A stretch of 64,000 bases of DNA from Nocardioidaceae bacterium (GTDB lineage Bacteria > Actinomycetota > Actinomycetes > Propionibacteriales > Nocardioidaceae). The translations under genes were made by a program, and so were the position numbers. The notes below the pieces were generated by a model, which saw nothing but the letters and a program-made list of their open reading frames with translations, was not told the origin of the DNA and searched no databases. Positions 18,629-28,873 of this stretch are shown piece after piece. The stretch is taken from positions 2,901,827-2,965,826 of the forward strand of contig CP076053.1 of NCBI GenBank assembly GCA_018672315.1. The letters run 5' to 3'. Each line of letters opens with the position of its first letter. The stretch's first letter is position 1.

Positions 18629-19081
18629 ATGGCCGAGCGTGCAGCGGGATGGAGCGGCGGGGACCCCGACGACCTCACCTCCTTGACCCTGATCCGCGTC
18701 TCGCTCGTCTTCAGACGCGTCTTCACCGAGACGCTCGCGCCGTTCGACCTCCCACCTCAGCACTTCAGCGTCCTGCTGCACCTGGTGCAGAAGCCCGGAC
18801 GGAGCCAGGCCGATCTCGCCCGCGAGGTGCTGGCGACGCCGCAGTCGGTCGGCGAGCTCCTCCGTGGGATGGAGGAGAGCGGTCTGGTCGAGCGCACCCC
18901 GCCCGAGGGGCGCGGACTCCCTGCACGCGTGTACGCCTCCGAGCGCGGGCGCGCGCTGCTCGAGGAGGTGACCCCCCACGTCCTCGCTGCCTTCTCCGCG
19001 GAGTCGCTGGGCCTCCCGGAGTCGACGTACGAGCGACTCAACGGCGACCTCCACACGATCCTGCACGCCCTCGGCGGGTGA
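18629..19081 (+). CDS. MarR-family transcriptional regulator
   Basis: 150-residue winged-helix regulator. The dimerisation helix covers the first 45 residues (LTSLTLIRVSLVFRRVFTETL), the recognition helix-turn-helix is QADLAREVLATPQSVGELLRG, and the wing follows with GLVERTPPEGRGLPARVYAS. MarR proteins are usually repressors released by small lipophilic ligands. Divergent placement from an MMPL exporter across a perfect inverted repeat strongly suggests that it represses the exporter and itself, and that the exported compound or a relative is the ligand. The ATG start appears leaderless. Confidence 0.88.
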   Translation: MAERAAGWSGGDPDDLTSLTLIRVSLVFRRVFTETLAPFDLPPQHFSVLLHLVQKPGRSQADLAREVLATPQSVGELLRGMEESGLVERTPPEGRGLPARVYASERGRALLEEVTPHVLAAFSAESLGLPESTYERLNGDLHTILHALGG

Positions 19082-19661: not shown

Positions 19662-20015
19662 GTGCCCGATGCCTTCCCCGCCCTCGCGCTGCTGCTGACG
19701 GTGGTCGCGACGGCCATCGCGGGCGTACGTCTCACGGGGCGTGGGCTCGCGGTCGGCGACGGTCCGCTGCCGGTGCTGCCGTACACCTCCGGACATCTCC
19801 CGACCCAGCACGCACTGAGCCGGTACCACGCGCGCTGGTACGCGGGTTCCGTGGTCTTCCTCGCCTTCGACGTCGAGATGCTGTTCATGTATCCCTGGGC
19901 CGTCGTCGTCGCCGACCTGGGGCCCGGTGCGGTGGTCGAGATGTTCGGCTTCCTCACCCTGGTGCTTCTCGCGGTCCTGTGGGCACGCCGGGAGGGGGCG
20001 TTGTCATGGGCCTGA
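19662..20015 (+). CDS. nuoA: Complex I-like subunit NuoA
   Basis: Three-helix membrane subunit of the complex I family, 117 residues. The diagnostic loop and helix RYHARWYAGSVVFLAFDVEM continue into LFMYPWAVVV; the conserved Asp and Glu of FDVE, which lie close to the quinone site in true complex I, are both present. GTG start, with a TACACA box 6 bp upstream. First gene of a tight eight-gene operon; its last 10 bp overlap the next gene. The subunits that would dock on it in a normal enzyme (NuoB, C, D) are absent or reduced to a relic, so its partner surface is unclear. Confidence 0.85.
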   Translation: MPDAFPALALLLTVVATAIAGVRLTGRGLAVGDGPLPVLPYTSGHLPTQHALSRYHARWYAGSVVFLAFDVEMLFMYPWAVVVADLGPGAVVEMFGFLTLVLLAVLWARREGALSWA

Positions 20016-21022
20016 CCGACCGTCTCCTCACCGGGCTGCGTGACGCCGGCACCGCGCGTCCGCACGTGCTGCTCGTCGAGCTTCCGGGGGGACGTGGCGT
20101 GCGCCGTGCGGTCGAGGACGCGCTCGACGAACGCGGCTGGCCGCGGGCGGTCAGCCCCGGCGCCGCCGACGTGCTGCTGCTCGCCGGCGAGGTCGGCGAC
20201 CCGCTGCTCCCGTACGTCGACCGCGTCCACGCCCAGCTGCCGGGACCGGCCGCACGCATCGCGGTGAGCGACCCGGCAGACGTGGACGACGCCCTCGACC
20301 GGAGCCGGGTCCACCTCGGCCACGCCGAGAGGCAGGCCGCGGCATCGAGGACGCGACCGGATCCGAGTTGGGTGCACCGCGCCGAGGACGAGCCGGCCGA
20401 GCCCGGTCCCATGGCTCCGTCCGGCATTCCCCTCGCCGGGGGCGCCGAGGACCGCGACGATCTCGAGATGGACGCGCTGCACGTGCCCCTGGGTCCCGTG
20501 CTCCCGCACTGGCCGGCCGGACTCGTCCTGCACTCGGAGCTCCACGGCGACGTGGTCGCCGATGTCCGGGTGGCACGGTTCGGTCACGACGTCCCGCCGC
20601 GGGACGCAGGGGAGGCGACCGCCCGCGTGCTCGACGCCGCCTCCCACGTGCTGGCGCTCGCCGGCGACGACCGCAGGGCCCTGCGGGTGCGGAGCCTGCG
20701 CCGCCGGGTGCTCGCTGACGTCACCGGCACCCGCGCGCAGACCCGCGTCGACCTGGCACGCCTCGAGCAGACCTTCCGGTCGCGACTGGTCGCACGGTCT
20801 CTCGGTGACCCGGCCCTCGCCGTCGCCGACCTGCTCGCCGGCACGCGCGGACCGCACGCGCCGATGCCGGATGTGCTCTCCGCGGAGGGCCTCCGTGAGG
20901 CGGTCGTCGGACGTGACGTCGGCGAGGTGCGTCTGCTCGTCGCCGCGCTGTCGCCCCGTCTGCGGAGCGAAGCGCCGGCCACATCGTCGGGTGGCCCCCG
21001 CCCGGGGGCGGGCGTGGCATGA
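20006..21022 (+). CDS. NuoB/NuoD-like relic protein lacking Fe-S ligands
   Basis: 338 residues in the place where nuoB, C and D normally sit. Residues about 18-90 follow NuoB: SPGAADVLLLAGEVGDPLLP then RVHAQLPGPAARIAVSD matches the NuoB pattern SP-qaDl-ivAG-V---m-P---Q-yDQmP-P-wv--mG-CA, but every cluster cysteine is gone. Residues about 155-195 (VPLGPVLPHWPAGLVLHSEL, then HGDVVADVRVARFG) follow the NuoD start (GPqHPs-hG-lrl-lel-Ge-V). The remainder has no recognised relatives. There are no cysteines at all in the protein, so it cannot carry N2. It probably caps the membrane arm on the cytoplasmic side. The stop overlaps nuoH by 4 bp. These relationships are from reading, not from a search. 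Confidence 0.6.
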   Translation: MGLTDRLLTGLRDAGTARPHVLLVELPGGRGVRRAVEDALDERGWPRAVSPGAADVLLLAGEVGDPLLPYVDRVHAQLPGPAARIAVSDPADVDDALDRSRVHLGHAERQAAASRTRPDPSWVHRAEDEPAEPGPMAPSGIPLAGGAEDRDDLEMDALHVPLGPVLPHWPAGLVLHSELHGDVVADVRVARFGHDVPPRDAGEATARVLDAASHVLALAGDDRRALRVRSLRRRVLADVTGTRAQTRVDLARLEQTFRSRLVARSLGDPALAVADLLAGTRGPHAPMPDVLSAEGLREAVVGRDVGEVRLLVAALSPRLRSEAPATSSGGPRPGAGVA

Positions 21023-21951
21023 CCCTGCTCGCCGCCGTCGGCCTCGTCGCGGCCACCCTCACGCTCGCATGGCTCTCGGCGGCCACGGGGGTGGCGTACG
21101 CCGGCGGGTCGCGGAGCACCGCGCTCCGTGCCCCCGCGTACGAGAGCGCCCGCCTGCTGCGGCAGCGTCGGCGCCGCACGGTGGACGCCGACCGGCTCCT
21201 GCTCACCCTCGCGGTGGTCGGGCTGTTCCCGATCGCGGTGCTCATGGCGGCACTCGTCCCGTTCGGCGACGGTCCCGCCGCGGCGACCCTGCTCGTCAGC
21301 GGCATCGGCATCGTGTGGATCAACGCGTTCGACGTCACCGTCTGGGCGCTGGTCTGGTTGCTGGGCTGGGGACCGAACGCCGCGTCGGGCCTGGTGGGCG
21401 GCTACCGCTTCCTCGCCCAGGCGCTGGCCTACGAGCTGCCGTTGATGTTCGCGCTCACCGCACCCGCCATCGCAGCGGGCAGCCTCGACCTGCGGGTCGT
21501 CGCCGACGCGCAGACGGTGCCGTACGCGCTGTGGATGCCGGTCGCGTTCGCGGCCTACTGCCTCGGCGTGCTCGGCTTCAGCCTCCGAGGACCCCTGGCC
21601 TCGCCGACCACGCCCGACATCGACGGCGGCGTGCTCGCCGAGCTGTCCGGCACCGACGCGCTGCTGGTCCGGGCCGGCCGCCACGCCCTGCTGGGCGCCG
21701 GGGCCCTGGCGGCGGTGCCGTTGTTCCTGGCCGGGGGATCGGGGCCGCTGCTCCCGGCGCCGGTGTGGGTGCTCCTCAAGGCTGCGGCGCTCACCGCCGC
21801 CCTGGCCTGGGTGGCGAGCCGCGTCCCTGCCGTGCGTCCCGACCGTCTCTTCGCCGTCGCCTGGACGTGGCTGCTGCCCGCGGTGCTCGTGCAGCTCCTC
21901 GTCGTCTCGGTCGTCGCGCAGGCGGGGTTGACCGCAGCAGGAGGCCGCTGA
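21019..21951 (+). CDS. nuoH: Complex I-like subunit NuoH
   Basis: Multi-helix subunit homologous to the one that forms the base of the quinone chamber. 310 residues. GGYRFLAQALAYELPLMFAL is the conserved helix 5 segment (A-YE-P). The cytoplasmic loop that in the true enzyme reads like PFDLPEAE-ELV-GY--EYSG is strongly degraded to TTPDIDGGVLAELSGTDALL, retaining few acidic residues, and the N-terminal loop is arginine-rich (RLLRQRRRRTVDADR). This suggests the quinone funnel or the contact to NuoD has changed. Start overlaps the previous gene by 4 bp (ATGA). Confidence 0.8.
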   Translation: MTLLAAVGLVAATLTLAWLSAATGVAYAGGSRSTALRAPAYESARLLRQRRRRTVDADRLLLTLAVVGLFPIAVLMAALVPFGDGPAAATLLVSGIGIVWINAFDVTVWALVWLLGWGPNAASGLVGGYRFLAQALAYELPLMFALTAPAIAAGSLDLRVVADAQTVPYALWMPVAFAAYCLGVLGFSLRGPLASPTTPDIDGGVLAELSGTDALLVRAGRHALLGAGALAAVPLFLAGGSGPLLPAPVWVLLKAAALTAALAWVASRVPAVRPDRLFAVAWTWLLPAVLVQLLVVSVVAQAGLTAAGGR

Positions 21952-22532
21952 TGCAGGTGACCGATGCCGGACTCCTCACCCACCTCGCGTACGCCGCCCT
22001 CGCCCTCACCGCGGTCGCCGCGGGTGTCGCGGTGTTCGTGGTGGACTCCATGGCCCGAGCGACCTGGGCGCTCGGCACCTCGTTCGTGTGCGTCGGACTC
22101 GCGCTGGTGCTGATGGGACAGAGCTACCTCGGCGTGATCACCGTGCTGATGATGGTCATGGAGATGGCGGTCATGGCGGTCTACATGCAGATGTTCATGG
22201 GCATGAACCCCGCCCTCATGCCGATGAGCATGGTGCACTCCCACCGCACGGCGGTCCTCGCGGGCGTCGGCACCTTCGCCGCGCTCGCTGCCGCCGCCCT
22301 GCTGATCCCGTGGCCCGACCGCCGGACGACGCCGCTCAGCTCCCCGGACGCCGACGTCACCGCCGCGATGGGCCGCGACATCATGGGCGCCCACGAGCTC
22401 GTCATGCTCGCCGTCGGACCGGTCATGGTCGCCACCGTCGTCGTCGGCGTGGTGCTCAGCGTGCGCGGCAGCCGGTACGACCGGCTCGGCGACGACCTCG
22501 ACCTCGACCCGGACCGGAAGGCGCACCGATGA
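21951..22532 (+). CDS. nuoJ: Complex I-like subunit NuoJ, methionine-rich
   Basis: 193 residues, assigned to NuoJ by position between nuoH and nuoK and by helix pattern (helix 3 GQSYLGVITVLMMVMEMAVM). The stretch from about residue 65 to 95 is unusually rich in methionine (about 13 Met in 31 residues, for example AVYMQMFMGMNPALMPMSM, then VHSHR), unlike typical NuoJ, where this helix carries VYAGAI-VLFLFV. The tail is polar and acidic (DRLGDDLDLDPDRK). GGAGG lies 9 bp before the ATG, which overlaps the nuoH stop by one base. Confidence 0.7.
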   Translation: MQVTDAGLLTHLAYAALALTAVAAGVAVFVVDSMARATWALGTSFVCVGLALVLMGQSYLGVITVLMMVMEMAVMAVYMQMFMGMNPALMPMSMVHSHRTAVLAGVGTFAALAAAALLIPWPDRRTTPLSSPDADVTAAMGRDIMGAHELVMLAVGPVMVATVVVGVVLSVRGSRYDRLGDDLDLDPDRKAHR

Positions 22533-22831
22533 CCCTGGAGACCGTGCTGCTCACCGCCGCTGCGCTGATCGGCGTCGGGGTGTACGGCGCCATGTCCCAA
22601 CAGGTCGTCGTGATGGTGATGATGGGCATCGAGCTGGCCGTTGCGGGGGTGCTGCTGGCCCTGGGCGGTCTGTGGTGGTTCACCAGTCCCGATGTGTCGC
22701 TCCAGACGCTCGGGCTGGTCGTGCTGGCCGCGATGACCGTCGAGATGGCCACGGGATTCGCGGTCGCCACCCTCCTGCACCGTCGCGACGGCACCGACAT
22801 GACCGACATGGCGGCAGGCCTGCATGAGTGA
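22529..22831 (+). CDS. nuoK: Complex I-like subunit NuoK
   Basis: Three-helix antiporter-related subunit, 100 residues, the usual length. Both intramembrane glutamates used in the proton path are present: MMGIELAVAGVLLALG in helix 2 and AAMTVEMATGFAVA in helix 3. ATGA overlap with nuoJ and an 8-bp overlap with nuoL show translational coupling. The retained glutamates argue that proton translocation, or at least charge movement, is still selected for in this module. Confidence 0.85.
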   Translation: MTLETVLLTAAALIGVGVYGAMSQQVVVMVMMGIELAVAGVLLALGGLWWFTSPDVSLQTLGLVVLAAMTVEMATGFAVATLLHRRDGTDMTDMAAGLHE

Positions 22832-24689
22832 GTCCGTGATGCGCGCCGGCCGGGCGGGACCGGCCCTCCCGCTGCTCGGAGCAGCGCTCGCGGCGCTCAT
22901 CGGTCTTCTCCTCCTCACGGCGGTCGCGGCGCAGGTCGTGGAGGGCCGACCGCCCGTACGCGTCGGGTGGGCGTTCTCGTCGATCGCCGACGTCGACCTG
23001 GTCCTGACGTCCTCCGGGCCCGGTGCGTACACCGCGTGGCTCGCCCCGCTGGTGGCGCTGGTGACCGCGACATGCCTCGTGGTCGCCTCCGTCCGCCCGG
23101 AGCTGTGTCGTCCGCGCTTCGTCGTGCTGATGCTCGCTTTCATGGTCGCCGCGCTGGTGACGGTGCTGGCCACGAACCTGCTCACCCTGCTTCTCGCGTG
23201 GGAGCTGATGGGGGCGGCGTCCTGGGCGCTGATCGGCTACCGATGGGCGGGCCGGAGCGTCGAGGCCGGCGCAGCGTCGCACGGTGCGCTCACCGCGTTC
23301 CTCACCACCCGCGCCGGGGACCTCGGCCTGTACGTCGCGGTCGGTGCCGCCGTGGCCGGCGGGGTCACCGGACTGCGGCTGGACGACCTCGCGGCCGCCA
23401 GTCCGGGCTGGCGCCACGTCATCGCCGCCGGCGTGCTCGTCGCGGCGCTTGGCAAGGCCGCGCAGCTGCCGTTCAGCTTCTGGCTGCGCCGGGCGATGGC
23501 CGGGCCGGCCCCGGTGTCGGCCCTGCTGCACTCCGCGGCGATGGTCGCGCTGGGCACGTACCTGCTGCTGCGTCTGTCCCCGCTGCTCGAGGCCGTCGGC
23601 TGGGCCGCCACGGCCACTGCCTGGCTGGGTGTGCTCACCGCGATCGCCCTCGGGGCCGTCGCGGTCGCACAGGACGACCTCAAGGACCTGCTCGCCGCCT
23701 CCACCGCCGCCCAGCTCGGCTTCGTCGTGCTCGCGGCCGGCGTGGGTGCCACCGGTGCCGGCACCGCCCACCTCCTCGTGCACGCCTGTGTGAAGGCGAC
23801 CCTGTTCCTGCTCGCGGGGCTGTGGCTGTGGCAGGCGGGCTCGCGGCGGCTCAGCGACCTCGTGGGTGTGGCACGGCGTACGCCCGGCCTCACCCGCGTC
23901 TCTCTCGTCGCGCTGCTCGCGCTCGGGGGGCTGCCCCCGCTCGGCCTGTGGTTCACCAAGGACGCGGTGCTCCACGAGGCCGACCGGTCACCGGCCGGGT
24001 CCGCCCTGGCCGTCGCCGGTCTCGTGGCGGCCGGCCTGGCCGCGGCGTACGTCGCTCGGGTGCTCGGGGTCCTCTTCCAAGGACCCGGACCCGAGGACGT
24101 CGACCTGCCGGGTGAGCCCCGCGTCGTCGTGATGCTGCGACCGCTCGTGCTTCTCGGCGCTCTCGGAGGGGTGCTGCTCGTGCCGGCCGTCGCGACCGCG
24201 CTGCCCGGGCGTCCGCCCTCCCTCGGGGCGCCCCTGGAGCTGGCGCTCTCGGCCGGCCTGGTGCTGCTCGTGCTGGTCCTCGTCTTCATCGCCGAGGCCG
24301 CTGCGCCCGCGCAGCCGCGACGCTGGCGACGGACCGTGGCGGGAGGACTGCTCAGTGACTGGCTCGGCCTCGAGCGGCTCGCCCACACTGTGGTCGTACG
24401 CCCCACCCTCGCCGTGGCCGGAGGTCTGGCCCGCCTCGACGACCGCGTGCTGGCCCGAGGCGTCGACGCCGCCGCACCGCTCACACGCCGTCTGGCCCGC
24501 GCGACCGGGCGGGCCGACGTCGCAGGCGTGGACGGTGTCGTACGCCTCGTCGACGCCGGCGCCCGAGCGGCCTCGCGGCAGGTGCGCCGCCCCCAACGCA
24601 CCGGACAGCTGCACCACTACTACGCCCAGCTCGTGCTCGTGCTCGGCCTCGGCGGGTTCGCCGCCGTCGTCGCCGCGCTGCTGACCTGA
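22824..24689 (+). CDS. nuoL: Complex I-like subunit NuoL (antiporter-type)
   Basis: 621 residues, full length including the lateral helix region. Key residues of the antiporter fold are kept: Glu in LTLLLAWELMGAASWALIGY, Lys in AALGKAAQLPFSFWLRRAM with GPAPVSALLHSAAMV, a broken-helix Lys in LVHACVKATLFLLAG, and FTKDAVLHE near residue 375. The C-terminal 150 residues include the segment that would form the long lateral helix and a final membrane anchor (VLVLGLGGFAAVVAALL). Compared with Mrp antiporter MrpA, no fused MrpB-like domain is seen. Together with nuoM and nuoN this makes three antiporter-type pumps. Confidence 0.88.
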   Translation: MSESVMRAGRAGPALPLLGAALAALIGLLLLTAVAAQVVEGRPPVRVGWAFSSIADVDLVLTSSGPGAYTAWLAPLVALVTATCLVVASVRPELCRPRFVVLMLAFMVAALVTVLATNLLTLLLAWELMGAASWALIGYRWAGRSVEAGAASHGALTAFLTTRAGDLGLYVAVGAAVAGGVTGLRLDDLAAASPGWRHVIAAGVLVAALGKAAQLPFSFWLRRAMAGPAPVSALLHSAAMVALGTYLLLRLSPLLEAVGWAATATAWLGVLTAIALGAVAVAQDDLKDLLAASTAAQLGFVVLAAGVGATGAGTAHLLVHACVKATLFLLAGLWLWQAGSRRLSDLVGVARRTPGLTRVSLVALLALGGLPPLGLWFTKDAVLHEADRSPAGSALAVAGLVAAGLAAAYVARVLGVLFQGPGPEDVDLPGEPRVVVMLRPLVLLGALGGVLLVPAVATALPGRPPSLGAPLELALSAGLVLLVLVLVFIAEAAAPAQPRRWRRTVAGGLLSDWLGLERLAHTVVVRPTLAVAGGLARLDDRVLARGVDAAAPLTRRLARATGRADVAGVDGVVRLVDAGARAASRQVRRPQRTGQLHHYYAQLVLVLGLGGFAAVVAALLT

Positions 24690-24694
24690 GCCGT

Positions 24695-24718
24695 CCCGAC
24701 CCCGACCCCGACCCCGAC
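24695..24718 (+). repeat. Four CCCGAC hexamers between nuoL and nuoM
   Basis: CCCGAC repeated four times in the 41-bp spacer, the only non-overlapping larger gap in the operon. Probably slippage-derived; no role is evident. Confidence 0.8.
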
Positions 24719-24730
24719 CCAAGGACCCGC

Positions 24731-26254
24731 GTGCTGACCCTGCTCATCGCCTGGCCGCTCCTCGCCGGCGCGCTGCTGCTCCTCCCGGGCATCCCCGACC
24801 GCGCCGCGCGCCGTCTCTTCGTGCTCGCGGCCGCGATCGAGGTCGTCGTCGCGGGCGTCGTGTGGGCCACCTACGACTCCCCGGCGCCGGGGGCCCTGTC
24901 GCACGAGATCGACGTGCCGTGGATCCCCGGCCTCGACGCGGGCTACCACGTCGGTGTCGACGGGCTCTCCCTCCCGCTCGTGCTGATGACGGTCGTGGTG
25001 GTCGCCGCCTGCGCCGTGCACACGCTGGCCGAGGACCACCGTCCCGCGAGGCTCGCAGCACTGCTCCTGGCGCTCGAGGGCGTCACCGTGGGCGTCTTCG
25101 TCGCCGCCGACCTGCTGCTCTTCTTCGTGTTCTTCGACCTCTCGCTGGTCGCGACCTACCTCGTCATCCTCGGCTGGGGCCACGGACCCGCCGACCGCGT
25201 CGCCCGCAGCGCGGTGCGCTTCTTCCTCTACACCTTCCTGGGGTCGCTGGCGATGCTGGTGGGGTTCGCGGCGCTGTTCGCCGCCAGCGACCCGCACACC
25301 TTCGACATGGTCGCGCTCGCCGCCGACCCGCCGTTCCAGGGCAGCGGCGCCCTCGGCGCCGCGGCCCTCGGCGCGGTGCTGCTGGGGCTGGCGATCAAGA
25401 CCCCGACGTTCCCCTTCCACACCTGGCTGCCACCGGCTCACACCGACGCCCCGACCGTCGGGTCCGTGGTGCTCGCCGCGGTGCTGCTGAAGACGGGCAC
25501 GTACGGCTTCGTCCGCATCGCGATGCCGATGTTCCCCGAGGCCTGGCGCGCGTGGGCGCCCGTGCTGCTGGTCGTCGCCATCGTCTCGGTGCTCTGGGGA
25601 GCTCTGGTCGCCCTCGCCCAGACCGACCTGAAGCGGATGGTCGCGTACACCTCGGTCAACCACATGGGCTACGTGCTGCTCGGACTCGCCGCAGCAGGGT
25701 TTCTCGGGGGTGCGCTCGACGGCGAGGCAGCCGAGGAGGCCCGCGCCGTCGCCGTGACCGGGGCGGTCGTCCTGATGGTGAGCCACGGCCTGCTCACCGG
25801 TGCGATGTTCCTGCTGGCGGGCGCGCTGTGGGACCGCCGCGACGGCTCGGCGGACCCGTACGACCTCCACGCGTACGGGGGTCTCGCCCGACTCACCCCG
25901 CGCTTCTCGGTGCTGCTGGCGGTCGCGGCGTTCGGATCGCTCGGGATCCCCGGCATGAGCGGGTTCGTCGGCGAGGTGCAGGTCTTCGCCGGGTCCCTGG
26001 CGACCGCGCCGTGGGCGGCGCTGGCGGTGCTCGGGATCCTCGTCACCGCCGCCCTGATGCTGCGCGCCCTGCACCTGCTGCTGGCCGGCGCCCCCGGTGG
26101 GAGGTCCACGGGCCTGACAGACCTGACGGCACGGGAGTACGCGCCGGTCGGTGCGCTCCTGGCCCTCTCGGTCGCCATCGGCGTGCTCCCGGGTCCGCTG
26201 GTGGCCGTGATCGAGCCCGCCGCCTCCGCCGTCGCGGCGTACGTGGCCCGGTGA
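24731..26254 (+). CDS. nuoM: Complex I-like subunit NuoM (antiporter-type)
   Basis: 507 residues, normal length. YHVGVDGLSLPLVLMT is the family N-terminal signature. The helix 5 segment reads LLLFFVFFDLSLVATYLVIL: the almost invariant Glu (W-E) is Asp here. Helix 7 AIKTPTFPFHTWLPPAHTDA keeps its Lys and HAD-like loop, and VAYTSVNHMGYVLLGL follows the discontinuous helix. GMSGFVGEVQVF is the C-terminal signature. GTG start with AAGGA 6 bp upstream. The Glu-to-Asp change is conservative but rare in proton-pumping NuoM and deserves note. Confidence 0.87.
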   Translation: MLTLLIAWPLLAGALLLLPGIPDRAARRLFVLAAAIEVVVAGVVWATYDSPAPGALSHEIDVPWIPGLDAGYHVGVDGLSLPLVLMTVVVVAACAVHTLAEDHRPARLAALLLALEGVTVGVFVAADLLLFFVFFDLSLVATYLVILGWGHGPADRVARSAVRFFLYTFLGSLAMLVGFAALFAASDPHTFDMVALAADPPFQGSGALGAAALGAVLLGLAIKTPTFPFHTWLPPAHTDAPTVGSVVLAAVLLKTGTYGFVRIAMPMFPEAWRAWAPVLLVVAIVSVLWGALVALAQTDLKRMVAYTSVNHMGYVLLGLAAAGFLGGALDGEAAEEARAVAVTGAVVLMVSHGLLTGAMFLLAGALWDRRDGSADPYDLHAYGGLARLTPRFSVLLAVAAFGSLGIPGMSGFVGEVQVFAGSLATAPWAALAVLGILVTAALMLRALHLLLAGAPGGRSTGLTDLTAREYAPVGALLALSVAIGVLPGPLVAVIEPAASAVAAYVAR

Positions 26255-26258
26255 CGCG

Positions 26259-27758
26259 ATGACGGGTCCGGACGAGAGCGGACTGCTGGGCGCTGTGCTG
26301 GTGCTGCTGCCCGAGGTGGTCCTCGTGGTCGGAGCGGTGGGCTGTCTCGTGCTGGGCTCGTGGACGCCCCGGCGCCGGCTGCGCCGGTTGTCGTGGACCG
26401 CGACAGCGGTCGTCGTCGTCTCGGCGACCGCGACGCTGGTGCAGCTGCTCGCGGCCGACGACGTCCGTGGTCCTGCGGTCATGGGCACGGTCGAGATCGA
26501 CGCCCTCAGCGGTGGGGCGAGGCTCGCCGTGGCCGGGTCGCTGATCGTGCTGCTGGCGATGGCACGTCGCGAGGCACCGACCGATCCGCGTGCCGCCGAG
26601 GTCGCCGTGCTCCTCCTCCTCGGCGGCGCCGGTGCCCAGCTGCTGGCCCTGGCGACCGATCTCTCGGTGCTGCTCCTCGCCTTCCTGCTGGCATCCATCC
26701 CGCTCTACGGTCTGCTCGCACTCACTCCTCCGTCGGAGGGCACCGGACAGAGCGATCGCGCCGGACGTACCGCCGAGGCGACGGTGAAGACCTACCTCCT
26801 CGGAGCGCTCGCCGGCGTGCTCATGATGCTCGGTGTCGTGATCACCGCCGGGGTCGCCGGGGGCACGACGTACGGCGTCGTGGCCGGCGCCGACGACGTG
26901 CCGCCCGCGGCGCTCGCCCTCGGGTTGGTGCTGGTGCTGACCGGCCTGCTCTTCAAGGCAGGCGCCCCGCCGCTGCACCCGTGGCTCCCCGACGCCGTGA
27001 CGGGATGCTCGACGACGGCCGGTGCCTTCGCCACCACGGTGCCCAAGCTGGGCGCGGTCGTCGCCGTCGGTCGACTCGGGGAGTCATTCGCAGGCACCGG
27101 AGCGCTGCCCGTCCCCGCGATCGTCGGCGTCGTGGCCGTGACCGCGATGGCCTGGGGCAACCTCGCTGCTCTGACACAGCGCGACGTCCGCCGACTGCTC
27201 GCCTGGTCGACGATCGGACAGACCGGCTTCCTGCTCGCCGGTGCCGCGGCACTGTCGACGAACGCGCCGGGGTCGGCAGGCACGTCCGTCACGGCGGCGC
27301 TGGCGGCCGACGCGCTGGCCGTCTACCTGCCGGCCTACGCGGCGGCGAACCTGACATGCTTCGCGGGGCTCCTCGCCTGCCCGCCACGTGGCTCACTGGA
27401 GGACTGGCAGGGGGCCGGGCGTACGCGGCCGGGGGTCGTGGCCGCCCTCGGCATCGGCCTGCTCGCCCTGGTGGGTACACCGCCCGCCGGCGTGCTCGTC
27501 GGCAAGTCCCTCGTTCTCGCGGCGACATGGGATCCGCTCCCGTGGGTGGCGGTCGGGCTGGTGGTGACCAGCGTGGTCAGTCTGGCGTACTCGCTGCGCT
27601 GGTTCGGCGCCTGCCTGGCGCCGGGCCCGGACGGTGGGTCGCCGAGCCACGCGTCCGATGAGACGGCGGGGACGCCACGCATGCTCCTGCTCACCACCGC
27701 TGCGGCTGCGGTCGTCGTCGGGCTCGGCGCCGGTCCGATCCTCGCCCTGACGGGTTGA
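26259..27758 (+). CDS. nuoN: Complex I-like subunit NuoN (antiporter-type)
   Basis: 499 residues. Recognised by LFKAGAPPLHPWLPDAVTGC with the conserved Lys, VPKLGAVVAVGRL, LAWSTIGQTGFLLAG and VGTPPAGVLVGKSLVL. In helix 5, where other NuoN proteins have an -E-LSLPLYAL motif, this one reads LLLAFLLASIPLYGLLAL with no acidic residue, so the central glutamate of this channel is missing. Last gene of the module; the stop is followed 68 bp later by the alpha/beta hydrolase with its own ribosome site. Confidence 0.85.
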   Translation: MTGPDESGLLGAVLVLLPEVVLVVGAVGCLVLGSWTPRRRLRRLSWTATAVVVVSATATLVQLLAADDVRGPAVMGTVEIDALSGGARLAVAGSLIVLLAMARREAPTDPRAAEVAVLLLLGGAGAQLLALATDLSVLLLAFLLASIPLYGLLALTPPSEGTGQSDRAGRTAEATVKTYLLGALAGVLMMLGVVITAGVAGGTTYGVVAGADDVPPAALALGLVLVLTGLLFKAGAPPLHPWLPDAVTGCSTTAGAFATTVPKLGAVVAVGRLGESFAGTGALPVPAIVGVVAVTAMAWGNLAALTQRDVRRLLAWSTIGQTGFLLAGAAALSTNAPGSAGTSVTAALAADALAVYLPAYAAANLTCFAGLLACPPRGSLEDWQGAGRTRPGVVAALGIGLLALVGTPPAGVLVGKSLVLAATWDPLPWVAVGLVVTSVVSLAYSLRWFGACLAPGPDGGSPSHASDETAGTPRMLLLTTAAAAVVVGLGAGPILALTG

Positions 27759-27826
27759 ACCGGCGGGCAGGCAGTCGCGTGAAAGGCTCGGAGGGTTCTG
27801 TCCCCGCCCGAGCGAGGAGCCCACCC

Positions 27827-28873
27827 GTGCCCGTCACCACCGTCCGCCTCGGGGGCCGCCCCGACCAGCCGCTGCTGCTGCTCGGTCCCGCCGCGGGCAC
27901 CTCGGTGCAGGCGCTCTGGACGGCTGCGGCGAGGCTGCTGGCGACGCACTTCCAGGTGGTCGGGTGGGACCTGCCCGGTCACGGCTCGAACCTGCGCCCA
28001 CCGCCGGGGCACGACGGGACGTACCCGACCATGTCCCTGGACGGACTGGCACGCGACGTGCTCGACGCCCTCGACCGGCTGCTCGACACCGCGCCCGGCG
28101 CACGTCCCACGCCGGTGCACTACGCAGGGCACGGCATCGGTGGCGCCGTCGGGCTCAAGATCGCACTGGACCGTCCGCCGCAGGTCGCGAGCCTCGCGAT
28201 GCTCGGCTGCTGCCTGGAACCGGGCGGCGACGTGCTCGCGCTCGACCCGCGCGACCCCGGGATGAGCGCCCGCATCGAGCGCGACCATCCGCGCGTCGCC
28301 GCGTCCCTGCGGGCAGCGGCGGACCGGGTCGACGTCGACGCGGTGCTGGCGGTCCGATGGGCTCACAGCCGCATCGACCTGCGCGCGCGGCTGGGTGACC
28401 TCCGCCTGCCCGTGCTCGCCGTGCACGGCGCGCAGGACCCGCTGTGCTCCGCCGACAGCGTCGCGACGGTGCTCGCCGAGACCGGCGCCGCCGGCTCGGG
28501 CAGGGCGCGGACCGAGGTGCTGGAGGGCGTCGGACACCTGCCCGCTGCGGAGGCGCCCGAGGCCGTCGCCGCCCTCGTCCGCGACCACGCCCTCGGGCTG
28601 GAGCCGCTGGACGAGCAGACACCCGTGCCGGGCAGCGACAGTCCGCTCGACCCGGTCACCGAGGCGCTGGTGCTGCTCGCGCTCGCCGCCGGTCGACGCG
28701 GCTCGACGGGCGAGGACGGCGCCCGGGCGGTGCTCGGCGCCTCACGGGCAGCGGTACGTGCCGGCGCGGCTGTGCCCGCGGTGGCACGCACGCTGAGCCT
28801 GGCCTGGGGTGACCGGGACGCCGACGGTCGACTGACCGCCAAGGTCACCCGCATGCTCGAGGCCGACCGCTGA
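27827..28873 (+). CDS. Alpha/beta-hydrolase fold protein lacking the nucleophile serine
   Basis: 348 residues with GAGGAG 7 bp before the GTG start. The fold is clear: VVGWDLPGHGSN after strand 4, an elbow region VHYAGHGIGGAVGLKIAL, LPVLAVHGAQDPLCSADS with the acid residue, and VLEGVGHLPAAEAPEAVAAL with the catalytic His. The nucleophile position in the elbow G-x-S-x-G-G is Gly 103 (GHGIGG), so a serine-hydrolase mechanism is not possible. A C-terminal domain of about 80 residues (after 265) contains VLLALAAGRR and AVLGASRAAVRAG, resembling the carboxymuconolactone-decarboxylase-like tail of PcaD fusions only vaguely. Possibly a binding or cofactor-independent enzyme role. Confidence 0.7.
   Translation: MPVTTVRLGGRPDQPLLLLGPAAGTSVQALWTAAARLLATHFQVVGWDLPGHGSNLRPPPGHDGTYPTMSLDGLARDVLDALDRLLDTAPGARPTPVHYAGHGIGGAVGLKIALDRPPQVASLAMLGCCLEPGGDVLALDPRDPGMSARIERDHPRVAASLRAAADRVDVDAVLAVRWAHSRIDLRARLGDLRLPVLAVHGAQDPLCSADSVATVLAETGAAGSGRARTEVLEGVGHLPAAEAPEAVAALVRDHALGLEPLDEQTPVPGSDSPLDPVTEALVLLALAAGRRGSTGEDGARAVLGASRAAVRAGAAVPAVARTLSLAWGDRDADGRLTAKVTRMLEADR

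Follow-up and report, generated by a model that had tools for sequence, protein, structure and literature searches.

An eight-gene derivative of complex I in Actinomycetota, its copper-gene neighbors, and a possible role in proton-coupled Cu(I) transport

The eight genes and their fused B-D protein

The DNA analyzed here, called the window in its entirety, is a stretch of 64,000 nucleotides (positions 2,901,827 to 2,965,826) from contig CP076053.1 of a Nocardioidaceae bacterium. Its positions 19662 to 27758 hold eight co-directional plus-strand genes related to those of respiratory complex I, in the order A-BD-H-J-K-L-M-N. Of the seven junctions, five are overlaps and two are gaps, of 41 bp (L/M) and 4 bp (M/N). 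The families of all but BD were confirmed by Pfam or NCBIfam profiles and by PDB matches: nuoA-like (19662 to 20015; PF00507, E value of 2.6e-20), with the FDVE motif retained and conservation assessed over 105 to 106 sequences; nuoH-like (21019 to 21951; PF00146, 8.8e-32; PDB alignment); nuoJ-like (21951 to 22532; PF00499, 2.7e-7), just below the Pfam cutoff and assigned also by the family alignment; nuoK-like (22529 to 22831; PF00420, 3.7e-8); and the antiporter-like subunits L (22824 to 24689; PF00361, 8e-44), M (24731 to 26254; TIGR01972, 5.9e-127, over the cutoff), and N (26259 to 27758; TIGR01770, 8.8e-60). None of the eight genes encodes NuoC, NuoE, NuoF, NuoG, NuoI, or another Fe-S protein. 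Much of this agrees with the initial annotation of the stretch, which had described eight tightly coupled nuo-type genes, lacking these same subunits and any Fe-S protein, as a membrane pump module that lacks a domain for electron input. The profile matches, the overlaps, and the recurrence of the cluster at about 100 other loci bear out the coupling; the second protein is free of cysteine; the proton-path residues, described as intact, are retained in NuoK (E35 and E72) and in NuoL (the Glu of transmembrane helix 5 [TM5] and the pump Lys and His residues); and the module as such was rightly recognized.

The second gene (BD, 20006 to 21022), which had been taken for a relic, is better described otherwise. 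On the evidence of profiles, an AlphaFold model, and structural matches, its 338-residue product is a NuoB-NuoD fusion stripped of Fe-S and quinone ligands, and this fusion is conserved, predicted to be folded, and present in every copy of the cluster. Positions 4 to 83 of a profile built from 67 family members matched PDB chains of NuoB/PSST (1.1e-9), and a profile of the longer members matched NdhH/NuoD/MbhL chains at 4e-24 to 2e-23 for the best ones, MbhL at 2.5e-23, and NuoB at 3.5e-10. The Pfam 49-kDa domain was detected in seven BD members, and a long member matched a NuoD structure at 3.6e-14. In the model of the window protein (pLDDT, 89.3; pTM, 0.86), the NuoB-like domain (residues 1 to 119, 20006 to 20362) aligns with NuoB chains by profile and by VIA-align (Z about 10), its residues 1 to 112 superposing on Escherichia coli NuoB with a Z of 10.2. 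The shortened NuoD-like domain (residues 144 to 325, 20435 to 20980) superposes through residues 147 to 323 on mycobacterial NuoD (8e9g_D; VIA-align Z, 12.2; root mean square deviation, 2.8; 170 residues aligned). Foldseek with the window protein listed 50 matches, all of them NuoB chains and none below an E value of 0.001.

The ligands that make this pair a redox module in complex I are missing. The CysCys of the N2 cluster is replaced (PGG), and the segment with the last two cysteines is deleted. Across the family, the quinone-site motif of NuoD, GPxHPxxHG, has become GPxLPxWPxGL (GPxLPxWPAGL) or GPLFPGLPGG, and the NuoD-like domain has neither the Ni-Fe Cys ligands nor any other conserved cysteine. 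Its length varies: a nearly full-length apo form persists in the branch L059 to L066, and the branch of the window has a shortened one. The initial annotation had considered electrons from another donor, a cation channel, or a novel partner for the module. The first is disfavored, since the family has lost both the N2 ligands and the quinone histidines of NuoD, and electron input is impossible by any known route; the other two come closest to the role proposed below.

A conserved family with copper-gene neighbors

The host genome, a single contig of 3.6 Mb, carries a second full copy of the cluster near 1.69 to 1.70 Mb (locus L011, G000:C1 1684001-1704000) and, separately, a complete 14-gene nuo operon, with A to L on locus L012 and M and N on L151 (B, C, D, E, F, G, I, J, M, and N identified by Pfam; A, H, K, and L by similarity). 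A search for such an operon had been suggested at the outset. Its presence means that the cluster is not the cell's NADH dehydrogenase, and it rules out a split enzyme of which the cluster would be one half, completed by nuo genes elsewhere.

A search with the BD profile revealed more clusters across Actinomycetota, and 106 loci, 97 of them distinct, were examined. All loci not ended by a contig edge share the eight genes in the order given above, and NuoC, NuoI, and the EFG module are absent from the clusters examined. The genera include Cryobacterium, Mycobacterium, Pseudonocardia, Amycolatopsis, Streptomyces, Micromonospora, Arthrobacter, and Nocardiopsis; the scan of named genomes (184 relatives, 80 kept) used an actinomycete subset profile, so that the named loci are biased to the window's branch. 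The distribution is patchy, with the cluster in 5 of 98 close relatives, and it extends to plasmids (15 plasmid records). On one of these, from Rhodococcus pyridinivorans (L232, 11666 to 19942), two IS3-family transposases flank the eight genes only, as a self-contained mobile cargo. One locus (L129) stems from a metagenome-assembled genome labeled Acidobacteria; the contig is short and may be contamination. No viral relatives of BD were found in a scan of viral contigs, and a viral origin was rejected. In a NuoM tree, the family forms one clade with moderate support (UFBoot, 90; SH-aLRT, 76); other NuoM proteins, among them the canonical one of the host genome, fall outside it. Within the clade, the copy in the window pairs with L011 (100/99) and has the longer branch of the two (0.55 versus 0.28 changes per column).

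Rather than being a broken complex I, the eight-gene cluster represents a family conserved in Actinomycetota. The fast evolution of the window copy and the shortening of the NuoD part in its branch might suggest a degenerating partial nuo operon with no function of its own. Set against the intact reading frames, the strict gene order, the near-invariant Met, Lys, and Glu residues phylum-wide, and the plasmid spread, this is the least probable explanation that we considered and is largely excluded for the family. Public annotation lists the genes as NADH-quinone oxidoreductase subunits and BD as "hypothetical" or "DUF4779," which misleads metabolic reconstruction. We found no description of the cluster in the open-access literature searched, and copper goes unmentioned in a 2025 survey of complex I variants (PMC12361115).

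Copper, nevertheless, is what the neighborhood points to. Unbiased clustering of all neighboring open reading frames at the 97 distinct loci gave CsoR (29 loci), a CopA-type P-ATPase (26), and DUF305 proteins (24) as the commonest neighbors, followed by a BNR lipoprotein (13), ArsR (12), an ABC-type cluster (12; named from sequence only), multicopper oxidase (11), a His/Met-rich membrane protein (11), and DUF326 (10) and, more rarely, by TlpA (9), CcdA (7), and HMA/CopZ (7). These counts are lower bounds because the flanks are often short. The DUF305 protein CopM binds copper and takes part in copper resistance (PMC4335983). CsoR occurs 53 times in 22 cluster-bearing genomes and lies within about 10 kb of the cluster in 10 of them, against 0.28 expected (P about 7e-13), and 24 of 31 neighboring CsoR-like proteins carry the copper-type pattern C-x24-H-x3-C. 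Conserved neighbors in related genomes, which the initial annotation had proposed to look for, thus exist in the form of recurring copper-resistance genes. This link, visible only in the relatives, had gone unmentioned there, as had the methionine-rich NuoJ helix described below.

Individual loci illustrate the range. In Curtobacterium pC1a, copZ-copA lies 82 bp upstream of A on the same strand; on Arthrobacter FB24 plasmid 1, a sulfocyanin-like cupredoxin, DUF305, and a BNR lipoprotein are followed by a multicopper oxidase directly upstream of A. CsoR, CopZ, and CopA are divergent in Pseudonocardia autotrophica, with DUF305 downstream, and a heavy-metal ATPase and an HMA protein lie upstream in Mycobacterium avium pHP17a. 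Elsewhere, for example in Rhodococcus (between IS3 elements) and Gordonia, the eight genes have no recognized copper genes nearby. The BNR-repeat lipoprotein ("F510_1955 family glycosylhydrolase") bears an HVHGLGV motif (for example, L108:19928-20812, L011:5550-6440, and L148:11729-12640), and the His/Met-rich membrane protein, found among other places at L113:8103-9059, has no Pfam match. At L050, L052, L053, and L055, the place immediately upstream of A, occupied by CsoR in other branches, is taken by an ArsR-type regulator, so that the inducing metal or the sensor may differ in that branch.

The oxidases near 11 loci, the thiol-redox genes tlpA and ccdA near 9 and 7, and the FB24 cupredoxin could also be taken to mean that the cluster imports copper or loads cuproproteins, the proton motive force (PMF) driving Cu(I) inward or to the outer face for cupro-oxidases or multicopper oxidases. 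We consider this unlikely, as the surrounding CsoR, CopA, and Csp-like DUF326 proteins indicate excess copper and the metal-rich linker of BD is predicted to be cytosolic.

That linker is His/Met-rich or bears a heavy-metal-binding domain (HMBD) in most relatives. Over 106 proteins, it contains 10.7% His and 5.4% Met versus 2.1% and 1.3% in the remaining BD. MDHGG repeats occur in the linkers of L089 and L122, and the HMBD (PF19335) was detected by Pfam in those of L059 to L061, the three members tested (best E value, 9.5e-15), an HMBD-type motif being visible also in L062, L064, and L066. The branch that combines this domain with a nearly full-length apo-NuoD (L059 to L062, L064, and L066) may represent an intermediate on the way from complex I to the shortened form.

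The window copy itself is probably a diverged, fast-evolving paralogue of the copper-associated second copy, L011, beside which lie a CsoR of the C-x24-H-x3-C type and a multicopper oxidase. A Mutator-family (IS256-type) transposase at L011 (4172 to 5467, minus strand) adjoins the BNR lipoprotein, multicopper oxidase, and CsoR there, which suggests that the copper cluster was mobile. In the window copy, the methionine ladder of NuoJ, the E-channel Glu, and the pump Lys residues are retained. Upstream of it are a MarR-type regulator (18629 to 19081) and a small membrane-type protein, and an alpha/beta hydrolase gene (27755 to 28873) overlaps the end of nuoN; neither the regulator nor the hydrolase had a match among the neighbors of other clusters in the neighbor clustering. 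The role of this copy is the least certain part of our analysis, and it may be less dedicated to copper because its linker (20363 to 20434) has been lost as a metal-rich segment.

Methionine-lined helices and a route for Cu(I)

TM3 of NuoJ reads LMMVMEMAVMAVYMxMFMGMNPALMPMSMVH across the family and carries a methionine ladder from M67 to H96 (22149 to 22238). In NuoJ, M34, M67, M68, M72, M75, M79, M83, M85, M92, M94, E71, and H96 are conserved in 103 or 104 of 104 sequences, and M68, M72, M75, M79, and M83 fall on one helix face, within 80 degrees. The ladder is absent from canonical NuoJ (12 to 13 aligned loci and the genome's own NuoJ), which has mostly V, I, Y, A, L, or T at this site, for example, IVYAGAIMVLFLFVIML. 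In complex I, NuoJ TM3 bears a pi-bulge at the coupling site. Methionines also accompany the neighboring glutamates: family-invariant M29, M32, M69, and M73 of NuoK, in which M31 is invariant as well, adjoin the conserved E35 and E72, and H56, M73, M76, and M94 of NuoA, likewise invariant, as is its RYHxRWY motif, lie near the conserved E72.

The proton-path Glu and Lys residues of K, L, M, and N are about 90 to 100% conserved, except for the TM5 Glu of NuoN, which is lost (Leu). In L and M, conservation of the pump lysines and histidines is 96 to 100%; NuoM retains K223, K254, and E415, its TM5 Glu being mostly Asp, and NuoN retains three pump lysines (90 to 99%). NuoH keeps R130, E139, and E208, whereas the acidic residues of its TM5-6 quinone/E-channel loop (about residues 187 to 208, 21577 to 21642) are mostly lost. 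Fe-S clusters are copper sensitive, and the Q-module pair persists as a folded fusion. Both points could favor an enzyme in which copper bound to BD substitutes for the Fe-S chain, electrons from Cu(I) reach quinone, and protons are pumped upon cuprous oxidation. With the NuoD quinone histidines gone, the NuoH loop depleted, no conserved set of metal ligands in the folded BD domains, and a His/Met linker that is of low complexity and variable, we regard such a copper-redox complex I as very improbable.

We propose instead, with a probability of roughly 0.6, that the cluster encodes a redox-dead derivative of complex I that works as a PMF-coupled Cu(I) transporter and is likelier an exporter. 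That the E-channel has been rebuilt as a methionine-lined path and, with the redox chemistry removed, serves proton-driven Cu(I) transport, in a class of pump unlike described members of the complex I/Mrp superfamily, seems to us slightly better than an even bet. From the gene content, conservation, and copper context, we infer copper binding, flux, direction, and coupling as follows. BD would sit on the cytosolic face, positioned as in complex I, and its linker would gather Cu(I) from CopZ or from free copper. The Met and Glu residues of J, K, and A, at the site of the complex I E-channel, may then form the path by which Cu(I) passes the membrane, while L, M, and N would couple this passage to proton movement. 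Export powered by proton influx would be likelier than import because of the copper-resistance setting and would make the cluster a functional counterpart of CusA, in which a methionine relay runs beside a proton relay and metal transport can be lost through one point mutation in the methionine network (PMC8092243). Ctr1, similarly, selects Cu(I) by methionine triads (PMC6437178).

The chief rival, to which we assign a distinctly smaller yet appreciable chance, is a copper-gated proton/cation antiporter. The BD linker would sense copper and gate Mrp-like H+/cation exchange, or a controlled proton leak, through L, M, and N, so that pH or PMF is protected under copper stress and copper itself is not carried. 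The retained pump residues of K, L, M, and N and the copper gene context would fit such a device; the eight genes include no periplasmic copper partner; and Mrp antiporters have these subunits in common, Mrp chains being among the PDB matches of NuoL. It leaves unexplained, however, the invariant transmembrane methionines and those near each E-channel Glu, neither of which a cytosolic linker sensor needs.

Several observations weigh against Cu(I) transport as we propose it. One continuous methionine path through J, K, and A is putative, structure prediction having covered single chains, and the Met-rich helices could instead bind Ag(I) or gate without conduction. Many loci have no recognized copper gene in the available flank, although some of these contigs are short, and some linkers of the L050 to L058 group contain Met but are nearly devoid of His. 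The window copy in particular fits poorly: no copper gene was found within 10 kb of it, its BD linker is among the poorest (3 His and 1 Met between residue 95 and the DRDDL motif), and position 149 of its NuoJ is Glu, where 102 of 103 sequences have Met.

Relation to known systems

By homology, as judged from profiles and alignments, the cluster belongs to the complex I superfamily, and by the features tested it is neither complex I itself nor a hydrogenase nor Mrp. With complex I it shares homologous A, H, J, K, L, M, and N subunits in canonical order and, as a folded fused pair, B and D. It differs in the absence of C, E, F, G, and I, of the N2 ligands, and of the NuoD quinone histidines, and in its NuoJ methionine ladder and copper neighbors. 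How complex I couples chemistry in the peripheral arm to distant proton pumping is a long-standing open question. In the cluster, the chemistry has been removed and the membrane arm kept, and the coupling helix, NuoJ TM3, has been replaced by a methionine ladder. If copper is moved, this would be a natural experiment showing that a different process can power the antiporter arm or be powered by it, and the cluster would offer a testable system for the coupling mechanism.

Ehr complexes likewise have an ion-pumping membrane arm bearing a NuoD-like subunit that lacks the Ni-Fe cysteines. Unlike Ehr, group 4 hydrogenases, and the membrane-bound hydrogenase MBH, the cluster retains NuoA, encodes J, K, L, M, and N as separate subunits, has B and D fused, and shows the copper features; the ferredoxin-like Fe-S subunit (NuoI) of Ehr and group 4 hydrogenases is not part of it. 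Mrp antiporters resemble it in that they carry out no redox chemistry and combine a NuoK-like subunit with antiporter-like ones. Nevertheless, the cluster has NuoA, NuoH, and BD, none of its eight genes corresponds to MrpB, MrpE, MrpF, or MrpG, and its M subunit falls within the NuoM family. DabAB and the NDH-1MS complex for CO2 uptake are further cases of complex I-type subunits serving something other than NADH oxidation, and DabB2 is a weak PDB match of NuoL, but no DabA-like gene occurs among the eight genes or the identified conserved neighbors.

The comparison with CusA, an RND (resistance-nodulation-division) exporter of Cu(I) and Ag(I), is of another kind. CusA is a single-subunit trimer of Gram-negative bacteria with no homology to the cluster, and the likeness, a proposed analogy only, lies in PMF-driven transport by a transmembrane methionine relay beside proton-relay residues (PMC8092243). 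If our proposal is true, a new kind of PMF-driven copper pump, built from the membrane arm of complex I, would have spread on plasmids among soil and clinical actinobacteria.

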